Positions 28,856 to 33,694 of a DNA stretch of 64,000 nucleotides are shown here, piece by piece. The position numbers and the translations under genes are program-made. Numbering within the stretch: the stretch's first letter is position 1; each line of letters begins with the position of its first letter. The notes under the pieces are model-generated. The model saw only the letters and a program-made list of their open reading frames with translations. It did not search any database and was not told where the DNA came from. The DNA lies in assembly GCF_023516575.1 (NCBI RefSeq), contig NZ_JAMGBE010000001.1, positions 496,001 to 560,000 of the forward strand, read 5' to 3'. Origin of the DNA: Sphingomonas hankyongi. GTDB taxonomy: Bacteria > Pseudomonadota > Alphaproteobacteria > Sphingomonadales > Sphingomonadaceae.

Positions 28856-29452
28856 TTAATATCGGCGATAGCCGTAGGCCGCATACGGGTCATTCGGGTT
28901 GTACTGATTGTACTGGCTGTACCCGTTGTAATTGGAGCCGTACACGCCCTGCGCCCGATCGATATCGACGTCGGTAATGTAGCCGCGATAATCGGTCTTG
29001 CACTTGAACGTCAGGTCGACGGGCGCCTGGCCGTTATAGCCGTAAGCCGCGCCGTAGCGGCCGCTCGTCGCGACGCCACGGATCGTGAGTCCACCGCTCG
29101 AGCGCTGCTCAACGCGGCTGATGCCGAGCACGTGGCCCTGGCCATAGCTGTTGTTATAGCCATAACCGTTATAGCCGTAGCCGTTGTAGCCGGCATTGCC
29201 GACAAGGCGGGCCTGAACGGCGTTGGTGCACTGGCTCACGGCGACCTGGCTGTTGGCCCCATAGCCGTAGCCATTGTAGCCGCCGTAGCCGTTGTAGCCG
29301 CCATAGCCGCCGCCCAGCACCTGCCCGATAACCTGGCCGACGACGTTGCCGCCGTAACCGTAGCCCGGATAATATTGCGCAGCAGCCGGGGCCGCGGCGA
29401 ACAACGCAGTGGCCACAGCGCCACCCGCCAAAATCTTGGTCAAAGCCTTCAT
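28856..29452 (-). CDS. Secreted Gly/Tyr/Asn-rich repeat protein
   Basis: A 198-residue protein with signal peptide (GGAVATALFAAAPAAAQ). The mature N-terminal half consists of degenerate GYGGYNGYG repeats, and a second Gly/Tyr/Asn block closes the C-terminus (NYNGYSQYNQYNPNDPYAAY). Between them is a folded-looking part with two cysteines (VSQCTNAVQARLVGN and VDLTFKCKTDYRGYI) that could pair. The composition resembles adhesive or amyloid-prone surface proteins; function is unknown. Its terminator is at 28802-28831. Confidence 0.7.
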   Translation of the reverse strand: MKALTKILAGGAVATALFAAAPAAAQYYPGYGYGGNVVGQVIGQVLGGGYGGYNGYGGYNGYGYGANSQVAVSQCTNAVQARLVGNAGYNGYGYNGYGYNNSYGQGHVLGISRVEQRSSGGLTIRGVATSGRYGAAYGYNGQAPVDLTFKCKTDYRGYITDVDIDRAQGVYGSNYNGYSQYNQYNPNDPYAAYGYRRY

Positions 29453-29686: not shown

Positions 29687-29765
29687 TGTTAAAGGAATTA
29701 GCCAGCCTTACTTGACCCGATGACCGGTGCGAGTCATGCAGTGGCAATCTGAAAGGGGGGCAAAG

Positions 29766-30650
29766 ATGCCTGTAATCAAACGTCTTGCGTTCACCGCGAC
29801 GGCCCTCGCGCTTGCTGCGTCGCCGGCAGTTGCAGCGAATACGACGCTGACCAATTTGACGGAATCGCAGGCTTTCCCGGCGATGCAGTCGACAATCAAA
29901 TACACCAGGGTCAGCACGACGAAGGCAACCGGCACCGGCAATTACGCCCGGGCGACGAGCACAGTTCGCTATGACAAGGCGACGAACAGCTACATCCTCC
30001 GCGACACCGGAAGCCTTGCTCTGACGTCGACCTTCGACCTCGACAATGCGGACGCGTCGTCGACGCCCCAATTCACGGTCGTGAAGCACGGCACCAACGA
30101 AACGCTGCGCATATATAATCCAGGCGCGACCACGCAGGGCATTGCCCTGACGTACACTGGCTACGGGCAATGGCGGCGCACGGGTACGCCCCAGTTCGGA
30201 ACCGGCACCGCGGTCAATGACACATATTTCGTCTACGGCCTGAAAACGCCATCCGCCGATGTGCCTCGCACCGGCAGCGCGACATATACGACGGCGCTCG
30301 ATGGGACCTACGCCAACGGCACCGGCGTCTATGCCGTCAACGGAACGGGCAGCCTGACGGCGAACTTCGGCGCCGGCACCGGAACGATCAACTACTCGGC
30401 CAATTTGGCGGGCGTTCGCGAAGGCGACAGCGCGGCGCTTGCAGGCCTTGGCGCACTGACCGGGGGCGCTGGCACGATCACCTATCGCAGTTCCGGATTC
30501 ACCTCGACCGTCGCCGCCACTGGCGGTGGCTTCGCGCTGGGCGTGAACGGGAACTTCTACGGCCCGGCGGCGCAGGAAATCGGCGGGCTCTTCCGGCTGA
30601 CCGGGAACGGCGGAAACGGCCAGGGTGCCATCGTCGGCACGCGTCCGTAG
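29766..30650 (+). CDS. Secreted TbpB/HphA-like beta-barrel protein, probable Slam substrate
   Basis: A 294-residue protein with signal peptidase I-type signal (AFTATALALAASPAVAAN) and no lipobox, so probably secreted rather than lipid-anchored. The N-terminal half is beta-rich. The C-terminal half is like the TbpB-type 8-strand barrel: FVYGLKTPSADVPRTGSATY, SLTANFGAGTGTINYSANL and the hallmark end NGNFYGPAAQEIGGLFRL. In known systems such proteins bind transferrin, lactoferrin, haemoglobin or haem and are exported by Slam. A Slam homologue starts 73 bases after its terminator-bounded end. The ligand here is unknown. Confidence 0.78.
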   Translation: MPVIKRLAFTATALALAASPAVAANTTLTNLTESQAFPAMQSTIKYTRVSTTKATGTGNYARATSTVRYDKATNSYILRDTGSLALTSTFDLDNADASSTPQFTVVKHGTNETLRIYNPGATTQGIALTYTGYGQWRRTGTPQFGTGTAVNDTYFVYGLKTPSADVPRTGSATYTTALDGTYANGTGVYAVNGTGSLTANFGAGTGTINYSANLAGVREGDSAALAGLGALTGGAGTITYRSSGFTSTVAATGGGFALGVNGNFYGPAAQEIGGLFRLTGNGGNGQGAIVGTRP

Positions 30651-30672
30651 AGGATCGTCCGGCGAATTTGCG

Positions 30673-30697
30673 AAGGGGGCTCCGCGGGGCCCCCTTT
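30673..30697 (+). terminator. Hairpin between TbpB-like gene and Slam gene
   Basis: AAGGGGGC (30673-30680) pairs with GCCCCCTT (30689-30696), followed by a short T run. It would attenuate read-through so that the secreted protein is made in excess over its Slam transporter, if both share a promoter. Confidence 0.6.
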
Positions 30698-30723
30698 CGC
30701 TGTGAGAAGCTGACTGGAAGCCG

Positions 30724-32043
30724 ATGCTGCTCCCTCTGATCTTATCGGCACTTGCGGTGCAGGGTGCCTCAGCTTCGCCACTAGACCCTTGCGCTGGACA
30801 AGCCAATTGCACCCGGGCCGGCGCGGCGCAACTATTCGCCCTCGCCGATCGGCTGTTCACACAGGGCGATCTCGCCGGCGCGGAAGTCATCCTCATCGCC
30901 TTGCAGCAGGATCCCGACCCGAAGCTTCGGGCCGAGGCGCGTTTCCGCCTCGCCGCGGTACGCGAGGAGCGTGGAGACATAACTGGCGCGGTCGCAGCAC
31001 TTCGCGAGCTGCTTGCGGAGCAGCCTGACGCGCAGCGGGCAAGGCTCGAGCTGAGCCGCCTTCTCGCGGCTGAAGGAAAGCCCGACGAAGCGCGCCGCGA
31101 GCTCGCCCACGCGCAGGAGGCAGGCCTCCCTCCCGACGTCGCGCGAACCGTCAGCCGTTTCTCCAACCTCCTGAGCGCAACCAAGCGCCGCGGCGGCTCA
31201 GTGGAAATCACCGCAGGACCGGACAGCAACGTCAATCGATCGACCAGCAGTCAGTTGATCGACACCGTCATTGCTCCGTTCCAGCTCGACCCCGATGCGC
31301 GGCGCCAATCGGGAATGGGAGTCACCGCCAGCCTGGAAGGATATTCCCGCGATGATCTTGGAAAAACTACCGTCCTCACGCGCGCCGGGGCCCGCGGCGA
31401 CTTCTTTATGGGCAAGGGACGCTTCAACGACGTCCAGGCCTATGCGGGAAGCGGGCCCGAGTTCGACACCAAGATCGGGCGCATCCGGCCCGCCGCGACC
31501 GTCGAACGGCGCTGGTTTGGCGGACATCCCTACAGCGTAGGGTTCGGAGGCGCGTTGAGCTGGATCGGAAAGGCGACCGCCAAGAGCCAGGTTGAGATCG
31601 ACGCGTCGATCGTGCGGCAATGGGTCAATGACAATGATGTGCTGGACGGCACGCGCTACGCCGCTGTCGTGACTTACGACCGCGCTTTATCGGAGGATAC
31701 CACTGCACGCTTCAACCTGCGCGGCGCGATCCTGGATGCGGCTGCCAACGCGGAATCGCTTCGCCAGGGCGCGGCAGAAGCGATCCTCGCCCACGATCTG
31801 GGCTTCGCCAATGTCTTCGCGAATTTGGCGTACACGAAGACCCATGGCCAAGCAGTGCTACCGCTGTTCGGCAAGGCGCGTGACGATGACCGCCTCGACG
31901 CAGGCGCCGGAATCGTTGCGCGGCGGGCATTCGGGGGTTTCTCGCCGTTGCTGCGGGTGACCTACACCCGCAGCTGGTCGAATATCGAATTGTACGATTA
32001 CAAGCGCGCGCGCCTCGACTTCGGGCTCACGCGCGGGTTCTGA
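30724..32043 (+). CDS. Slam (surface lipoprotein assembly modifier) homologue, DUF560
   Basis: A 439-residue outer-membrane protein. After a signal peptide (LILSALAVQGASAS) come TPR-like helices at about residues 35-150 (AEARFRLAAVREERGDITGA, RARLELSRLLAAEGKPDEA, then GLPPDV) and a barrel of about 280 residues opening with VEITAGPDSNVNRSTSSQ, the D-x-N-x-N signature of the family, and ending RLDFGLTRGF. Slam proteins move TbpB-like cargo across the outer membrane. The preceding gene encodes such a cargo. No TonB receptor gene is adjacent. Confidence 0.85.
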   Translation: MLLPLILSALAVQGASASPLDPCAGQANCTRAGAAQLFALADRLFTQGDLAGAEVILIALQQDPDPKLRAEARFRLAAVREERGDITGAVAALRELLAEQPDAQRARLELSRLLAAEGKPDEARRELAHAQEAGLPPDVARTVSRFSNLLSATKRRGGSVEITAGPDSNVNRSTSSQLIDTVIAPFQLDPDARRQSGMGVTASLEGYSRDDLGKTTVLTRAGARGDFFMGKGRFNDVQAYAGSGPEFDTKIGRIRPAATVERRWFGGHPYSVGFGGALSWIGKATAKSQVEIDASIVRQWVNDNDVLDGTRYAAVVTYDRALSEDTTARFNLRGAILDAAANAESLRQGAAEAILAHDLGFANVFANLAYTKTHGQAVLPLFGKARDDDRLDAGAGIVARRAFGGFSPLLRVTYTRSWSNIELYDYKRARLDFGLTRGF

Positions 32044-32048
32044 CTTGC

Positions 32049-32468
32049 TCAGGCCGCTTCGAATTCTTCCTCGGTCATGACCGGGCCGCTGTCCTGGCCC
32101 TTGGCGGCCACGTCGCGGTCGACGAACTCGATCACCGAGATCGGCGCTGCGTCCGAAGCGCGGATGCCGGCCTTGATGATGCGCGTGTAGCCGCCGTTGC
32201 GGTCGGCGTAGCGCGGACCGATCACGTCGAACAGCTTGGTGAGCTGCGCATCGTCCATCAGCCGCGACTGGGCGAGACGGCGGTTCGAAAGGCCGCCATG
32301 CTTGGCGAGCGTGATCAGCTTCTCGACATAGGGGCGAAGTTCCTTCGCCTTGGCCGTCGTGGTCGTGATCTGCTCGTGCTTGATGAGCGCGGCTGCCATG
32401 TTGCGGAACAGGGCCGCACGGTGGCTCGAGGTGCGCTGAAGCTTACGTCCGCCAACGCGATGGCGCAT
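32049..32468 (-). CDS. rplQ: 50S ribosomal protein L17
   Basis: A 139-residue ribosomal protein with the canonical start [20 protein letters not shown] and [11 protein letters not shown]. The C-terminal extension after [19 protein letters not shown] is common in alphaproteobacteria. rplQ normally follows rpoA at the end of the alpha operon; here the upstream neighbour is a desaturase gene 122 bases away, so rplQ has its own promoter or the operon end was split. It converges closely with the Slam gene. Confidence 0.96.
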
Positions 32469-32590
32469 GGGTCATTCCTTTCGTTCGTCAGGGGACCGTG
32501 CAAGGTATCCCCGGCCAGGCGGACTTTCGGGAGCCGCCATTCATCCCAAATGACAACGGCGAGCGCTGACGCCCGCCGGATGCGCAGCCC

Positions 32591-33694
32591 TCAAGCGGAA
32601 ATGCGGCGATTAGTCAAGGTGCTGGCTGCCAGGCGGGCGACCAGCGGCGTCAGGCCGCGATGGCTGCTGGCGTGATAGACCGACCCCGCGTCCAACTCCC
32701 GGCAGAGGCGGCGGTGCGCTTCGCCCAGCGCATGATAAGGCAGTCCCGGCAGCAAATGGTGCAGCGCGTGGTAACGCAGCCCGACCGGAGCCCACAGAGC
32801 GGGTAGCGTGCCTGGCGGTGGCACGTTGACGCTATCGAGATATTGCTCGGTCACGCTCATCGGCTCGCCCTCATTCTCCCAAAGGTGGGCAACGAGCGTG
32901 CGGATCTGGTTGAGGAACATCACGCCCGACGAGATGGCGAGGAACAGCAGGAACTCGCGCATGGGAATGACCCCAGTCGCAACCATCGTCAGGAGCGCGA
33001 TCGCCCACAGGCTGCAGGCAGTCTCCATCAACGCCCATTCGCGCGCGAAATCCCCTTCGGGCGCCGGGCGGCGGAACTTCGGGTTGATCTGCAGCCCCGA
33101 ATATTTCTCCACGACCACGCGGCGCAGCTTCCTGGAAAGAAGCGACAGCGGCGCGAGGATTCCAAACCGGATAAGCATCCCGATCGGCGCTAGCGCCGCG
33201 GCCACCAGGAACACCGGCAAGGTCCAGGGCTTCATCAGCGCGAGCGGCAGATATTCGGGGTCGTTGACGGTCCCGTAATAACGCTTGGCGTGATGCTGGT
33301 TGTGCACGCCCTCGTACATGAAGCTCGGCACGAGCAGCGGAATGCCGACGATCAGGTTCCAGACAAGGCGGAAGCCGGGAACGGCGCCGCTCTTGATGTG
33401 CGTCAGCTCATGGATGAACGAGCCCGCGCGATAAAGCGCGAGCACCGCGACCAACCCGGCCGCAATGGCGATCCATGCCGAAGCCGAGAGCATAGCGGCG
33501 AACAGTGCGCCATATCCCAAAAGCGCCGAGCCGATGAGGTCGGCCCAATAGATGCGAGCATTGGGGACGTTCAGCTCACGAGTGAGGCTCGCCGCGGCCT
33601 TGAGCATCGCGGCATCGTCTTGCGCGCGCGCCGTCGACTGCCGCGCTGGCGCAGCATTAGTGCGTGGACGATCGAGGGTCGCTGTCTGGTTCAT
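32591..33694 (-). CDS. Fatty acid desaturase family membrane protein
   Basis: A 367-residue di-iron membrane enzyme. The three His clusters are visible: FIHELTHIKSG, GVHNQHHAKRYYG and YHALHHLLPGLPYHALGEAH. Several hydrophobic segments lie between them (LLGYGALFAAMLSASAWIAI and others). It probably introduces a double bond or hydroxyl into a lipid chain; the substrate (fatty acid, sphingolipid or carotenoid) cannot be fixed. The unusual N-terminal 45 residues are Ala/Arg-rich and likely cytosolic. Confidence 0.85.
   Translation of the reverse strand: MNQTATLDRPRTNAAPARQSTARAQDDAAMLKAAASLTRELNVPNARIYWADLIGSALLGYGALFAAMLSASAWIAIAAGLVAVLALYRAGSFIHELTHIKSGAVPGFRLVWNLIVGIPLLVPSFMYEGVHNQHHAKRYYGTVNDPEYLPLALMKPWTLPVFLVAAALAPIGMLIRFGILAPLSLLSRKLRRVVVEKYSGLQINPKFRRPAPEGDFAREWALMETACSLWAIALLTMVATGVIPMREFLLFLAISSGVMFLNQIRTLVAHLWENEGEPMSVTEQYLDSVNVPPPGTLPALWAPVGLRYHALHHLLPGLPYHALGEAHRRLCRELDAGSVYHASSHRGLTPLVARLAASTLTNRRISA

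Follow-up and report, generated by a model that had tools for sequence, protein, structure and literature searches.

A predicted two-gene Slam export pair with an unlipidated TbpB-like cargo in Sphingomonas hankyongi

Introduction

Which protein does a Slam carry through the outer membrane of a sphingomonad, and what could that protein bind? Slams have been reported in all clades of Proteobacteria (part of the text of Hooda et al. 2017, PMC5449769), and the experimentally verified Slam systems all fall within an animal-associated cluster (available sections of PMC12282271). Here, we analysed a 64-kb stretch of the S. hankyongi genome, in the following called the window. An initial annotation, made from its letters, had proposed a Slam homologue next to a TbpB-like secreted protein, to which we refer as the cargo. 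The folds that we predicted for both proteins, the linkage of their genes, the missing lipobox and the missing receptor neighbour support this proposal. We consider it very likely that the pair is a two-gene type 11 secretion system (T11SS) with Slam-type export of an unlipidated cargo, an estimate that does not extend to the ligand. The features of the region are listed in Table 1.

Table 1. Coordinates of the pair and of the features around it, given as positions in the window
Feature	Position	Strand	Description	Basis
Gly/Tyr-rich gene	28856..29452	-	198-aa protein on the other flank of the pair; context	no Pfam/NCBIfam match
Possible ribosome-binding stretch	29754..29765	+	AGGGGGGCAAAG, ahead of the cargo ATG	read by eye
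Cargo gene	29766..30650	+	ATG at 29766, stop ends at 30650	ORF translation, profile searches, AlphaFold2 model
GC-rich hairpin	30674..30695	+	9-bp stem, loop CGCG, weak T tract; the 'terminator' of the initial annotation	folding
Slam gene	30724..32043	+	439-aa outer-membrane protein (Slam / T11SS) that ends in F439; TPR helices, then 14 strands	Pfam, alignment, model
rplQ	32049..32468	-	ribosomal protein L17, convergent with the Slam gene; context, outside the system	neighbourhood scan

Predicted folds of the two proteins

The Slam scores 42.2 bits against PF04575 (SlipAM, cut-off 22), a family with no second match in the whole genome, and its N-terminus scores 39.2 bits against TPR_19 (cut-off 25). 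Its model, built from a 52-row alignment (pLDDT 90.8, pTM 0.73; 296 of 421 residues at pLDDT of at least 90), consists of seven helices followed by 14 strands of at least 12 residues each. Among solved structures, BcsC and OmpG come closest to it in shape; a solved Slam structure was not among the 50 matches listed for this model. By its SlipAM score, N-terminal TPR helices and predicted C-terminal 14 strands, the protein is the TPR-barrel Slam homologue that had been proposed. It shares the TPR and barrel layout with Slam1 and Slam2 of Neisseria but differs from them in that PF24575 (TPR_Slam) stays below its cut-off (27.9 bits, cut-off 35.2) and in the unlipidated cargo beside it.

The cargo has 294 residues, with a signal peptide of SPI type at approximately residues 1–23 (by eye) and a mature part of 271 residues that is rich in Thr, Gly and Ala and contains few charged residues. 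An AGGGGGG motif at 29754–29760 lies 5' of its ATG. Reading the translation and counting the mature part revealed zero cysteines. The protein thus has no lipobox, and the non-lipid signal peptide of the initial annotation stands. The cargo is present in one copy in the genome (search at E up to 0.1), and it comprises a single handle-barrel unit with no repeat stretch.

Taken alone, the cargo sequence stays under both Pfam and NCBIfam cut-offs, which speaks against reading the pair as an export system. It scores 17.1 bits against PF01298 (TbpB_B_D, cut-off 26) and 34.8 bits against NF041636 (slam_lipo, the NCBIfam model of Slam-dependent surface lipoproteins, cut-off 80); both the score and the absent lipobox cysteine place it outside the latter family. 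At the level of the cargo family, PF01298 matches 60 of the 73 alignment rows (E up to 0.01), and the profile of these 73 rows finds TbpB chains in the PDB with an E value of 7e-23. The AlphaFold2 model from the same alignment (mean pLDDT 89.5) contains a handle and an eight-strand barrel, as in TbpBBD cargos. Its top Foldseek match is the TbpB C-lobe 5kkx (E 2e-9), with a moderate overlay (TM-score 0.53 by query, 0.61 by target); further matches are hemophilins (7re4, 8gm3), HpuA, factor H-binding protein and NHBA. The TbpB/HphA-type C-terminal barrel suspected from the sequence was thus recovered, and the structure prediction suggested as a check returned the expected layout for both proteins. 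TbpB is both the first Foldseek match and the best profile match of the cargo; the cargo differs from it in that it has a single lobe where TbpB has two, lacks the lipid anchor and has no receptor gene in the window.

Linkage of the pair across the Sphingomonadales

To find the pair elsewhere, we searched 396 genomes of the order Sphingomonadales, with the window's own genome counted in. Cargo matches occurred in 60 of these genomes (E up to 0.001) and Slam matches in 103 (E up to 1e-5). The initial annotation had treated Slam systems as a matter of pathogens, a view that is not supported: they are common here, and two papers from 2021 (PMC8406197) and 2025 (PMC12282271) already include sphingomonad members.

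Linkage was counted for 106 of the 120 Slam rows, leaving aside the 14 with the poorest E values (from 2.9e-7 upwards). A cargo match lies within 5 kb of the Slam in 45 of the 106 rows; among the 58 strongest rows, including that of the window, 43 have such a match and 15 do not. In addition, we scanned with the Slam alignment and retained the best 80 of 148 relatives as loci. A profile of eight cargos detected a cargo ORF at 77 of these best 80 of 148 loci and none at L092, L114 and L137. The frequent proximity to the strongest Slams, together with the cargo ORFs at nearly all of these loci, argues that the pairing is not due to chance. At 54 loci, the cargo is located upstream of the Slam; 14 of these pairs overlap by four bases and the gaps reach at most 140 bases, values that were taken from the longest possible ORFs, such that real gaps may be larger. 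The spacing in these relatives is as in one operon. In the window, 73 bases lie between cargo and Slam. The cargos themselves vary in size; for instance, those of L102, L099, L093, L117 and others have approximately 570–1030 residues with two or three units, and some carry long Pro-Thr repeats.

The 15 strongest Slams without a nearby cargo match indicate that adjacency is not strict. The Slam of the window might thus export another protein or be inactive, with its TbpB-like neighbour remaining periplasmic. However, the reading frames of both genes are intact, the conserved positions of the Slam are retained (F439 in 15 of 15 aligned sequences) and the site of the pair is shared by three genomes, and we regard this explanation as very unlikely. 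That the two genes are a Slam-type export pair is a conclusion in which we have high confidence.

A terminator had been noted between the two genes, from which an excess of cargo over exporter was proposed. The GC-rich hairpin with its 9-bp stem is present, but it ends in a run of only three T's, the 91-base stretch that contains it folds no better than shuffled sequences (z -0.82) and a terminator scan reported none between the cargo and Slam genes. In L076, the 60-base spacer likewise forms a strong hairpin. An excess of cargo over exporter is possible, but the case for it is weak, given the poor T tract and the operon-like spacing in the 54 relatives with an upstream cargo.

State of the lipid anchor

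Signal peptides and lipoboxes were assigned with a simple rule, supplemented by visual reading of the sequences. Among the 94 cargo ORFs of the best 80 of 148 loci, the rule detects a lipobox in 84, and three more were recognized by eye (L089, L143 and L150). Five ORFs were of SPI type by rule, including those of L089 and L143, which show a lipobox when read. Another five were ambiguous by rule; here, L150 has a lipobox on reading, and one ORF each of L094, L104, L132 and L139 remains ambiguous. The only clear SPI types, with a signal like that of the window's cargo, are the two ORFs of L075 (Sphingomonas sp. URHD0057) and that of L076 (a metagenome bin).

We mapped the anchor state onto a Slam tree of 53 rows, comprising 43 of the best 80 loci, nine other Slams and the window. 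In this tree, 41 loci are labelled as lipidated, of which L094 and L104 owe the label to another cargo ORF of the same locus and L089 and L150 to reading by eye. The window, L075 and L076 form one clade (support 100/99), and the anchor state changes once; the node linking this clade to the other sphingomonad Slams is without resolution. Since the cargo beside the outgroup Slam of L009 has a lipobox (LTLAACGG), the anchor was, by parsimony, probably lost in the branch of the window, L075 and L076. The cargos of L065, which belongs to the same genus, and of L073 are lipidated as well (by eye). Judged from their signal peptides, most relatives' cargos are predicted to remain on the cell surface, and we suggest with moderate confidence that the cargo of the window is released instead of anchored.

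What the cargo may bind

In the mechanism that we propose, the cargo would be synthesised with a Sec signal peptide, cleaved by signal peptidase I and passed through the periplasm. The adjacent Slam would recognise its C-terminal barrel and carry it through the outer membrane; as the branch of the window has no lipobox, the cargo would then be released or loosely held. The N-terminal handle may bind another surface or a ligand outside the cell that is not haem. We infer export, its direction and the role of the barrel from the characterised Slams, whereas a binding role of the cargo and its ligand are guesses.

Hemophilin, HphA and HrpC resemble the cargo of the window in design, as they are unlipidated Slam cargos with an N-terminal handle and a C-terminal eight-strand barrel. 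The cargo could be a hemophilin-type haemophore, that is, a secreted protein that picks up haem and passes it to a TonB receptor encoded elsewhere. Besides the hemophilins among the Foldseek matches, the 73-row profile finds hemophilins in the PDB (E 2e-7 to 0.0096) and HphA_C matches three of the 73 family domains (E up to 0.01). The receptor may be distant, as the genome contains 16 TonB-receptor Plug matches, three on the same contig and 13 on other contigs. However, haem is held by H43 and H106 in HphA and by one His in hemophilin (part of PMC8560813), whereas the single His in the mature cargo is not conserved: in any column of the alignment, His occupies at most 8% of the rows, and 19 of the 73 rows have none. 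The window is also free of Plug matches, and the closest one on the contig is approximately 177 kb from the cargo gene, which agrees with the earlier remark that the pair has no adjacent TonB receptor. Furthermore, a FecCD permease has no match in the genome (E up to 0.001), and the nine neighbours scanned do not include a haem oxygenase. Given the one unconserved His, the missing nearby receptor and the missing FecCD match, haem uptake as by HphA is unlikely and haem ranks low as a ligand; a haemophore appears improbable, although hemophilin itself manages with one His. In line with the initial annotation, we infer that the ligand would be other than a host protein.

At 21 of the best 80 of 148 loci, an ORF that groups with a Pfam-confirmed TonB receptor in clustering is located no more than approximately 6 kb from the pair, which is not informative because these genomes are rich in such receptors. 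A cobalamin riboswitch is present at 8 of 29 loci scanned, namely at 7 of the 21 that had been selected because a receptor is close by (L117, L135, L138, L104, L112, L128 and L149) and at 1 of 8 others (L094). The riboswitch is followed by the receptor, a binding-protein-like lipoprotein (by eye), a permease that resembles BtuC and an ABC ATPase, the last assigned in L138 via clustering only. In five scanned loci (L117, L128, L135, L138 and L149), the best NCBIfam model of the receptor is a B12 receptor, below its cut-off. In L117 and L135, Slam and cargo come after the transport genes and share their strand. A large opposite-strand ORF separates the transport genes from the Slam in L104, L112, L128 and L094 (PepO-like in L112, E 8.5e-87, below cut-off), and in L149 approximately 2.5 kb without assignment lie between them. 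From this, sphingomonad Slam cargos might be corrinoid (B12) binders, with the lipidated ones serving BtuB as co-receptors on the cell surface, next to btu-like genes under riboswitch control (Erythrobacter/Novosphingobium branch), and with the branch of the window as a released binder. The link may be mere shared gene order. An RNA scan found no cobalamin riboswitch at the window, L075 and L076; the one in the window's genome (C3:424187-424811) directly precedes a TonB-receptor plug on a contig that differs from that of the pair. We consider B12 binding extremely unlikely.

The exported protein could also be an adhesin or matrix protein that attaches to surfaces, or to the envelope of the cell that makes it, and has no small ligand. 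The Thr/Gly/Ala-rich composition with its few charges would fit, as would the relatives, many of whose cargos contain two (41 of 92 proteins) or three (15 of 92) near-full handle-barrel units, some of them with long Pro-Thr repeats. Moreover, the available sections of one paper liken Sphingomonas repeats to the elastic linker of a Xanthomonas endoglucanase and propose adhesion for related Psychrobacter PTD repeats (PMC12282271). By contrast, the cargo of the window is a single unit without repeats, and among the nine neighbours scanned with Pfam, three of them without a match, there is no polysaccharide or biofilm family and none that indicates a binding role. We regard adhesion as a tentative alternative that deserves consideration, below our preferred reading of a handle that binds a ligand or another surface.

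Chromosomal site

The pair is convergent with rplQ in all three genomes of the unanchored branch. In nine other genus members, the slot between rplQ and the Gly/Tyr-rich gene contains a different large ORF in five (L185–L188 and L190; prolyl oligopeptidase-like by eye) and no large ORF in three (L191–L193), and in one (L189) the gene order is rearranged. The G+C content of the two genes (0.642 and 0.651) resembles that of the window (0.633, sd 0.023), and composition thus gives no sign of a recent arrival of the pair as foreign DNA.

The Gly/Tyr-rich protein has matches near rplQ in the genus members examined. On the 5' side of rplQ, where rpoA is usual, a fatty acid desaturase is found (32049-33694), as also in L186, L187, L188, L190, L055 and L076. 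The only Rfam match of the window above the gathering score is a serC leader RNA (RF00517, 39745-39797, 46.3 bits).

Conclusion

The kind of system described here is already known in the family. Grossman et al. 2021 (PMC8406197, in the sections available) describe TXISS/T11SS subcluster 1C as largely composed of environmental Sphingomonadaceae, with no characterised member; like the window, it comprises the Slam (DUF560) of environmental sphingomonads, and TbpBBD genes nearby were surveyed. The same source reports that HrpB of Xenorhabdus was shown to export the soluble, unlipidated cargo HrpC. 'Sphingomonas surface proteins', the T11SS cargos presented by Grossman et al. 2025 (PMC12282271), who count 18 lipoproteins and 12 soluble proteins among them, are sphingomonad cargos with handle-barrel units, as is the cargo of the window; however, they have several barrel units and Pro-Thr repeats, whereas the latter has one unit and no repeats. 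In the literature examined, we found no description of an unanchored single-unit branch beside rplQ and, among the matches listed, no experiment on a sphingomonad Slam.

Several cargos of the verified animal-associated Slams take host iron or haem. This machinery is also common in the order studied here, whose members are mostly free-living; its cargo has no conserved His that could hold haem, and in one small branch, in which the pair occupies a fixed chromosomal site, the lipid anchor is missing. The anchored and unanchored cargos form a natural pair for studying the barrel's own part in export and what such proteins bind in the absence of a host.
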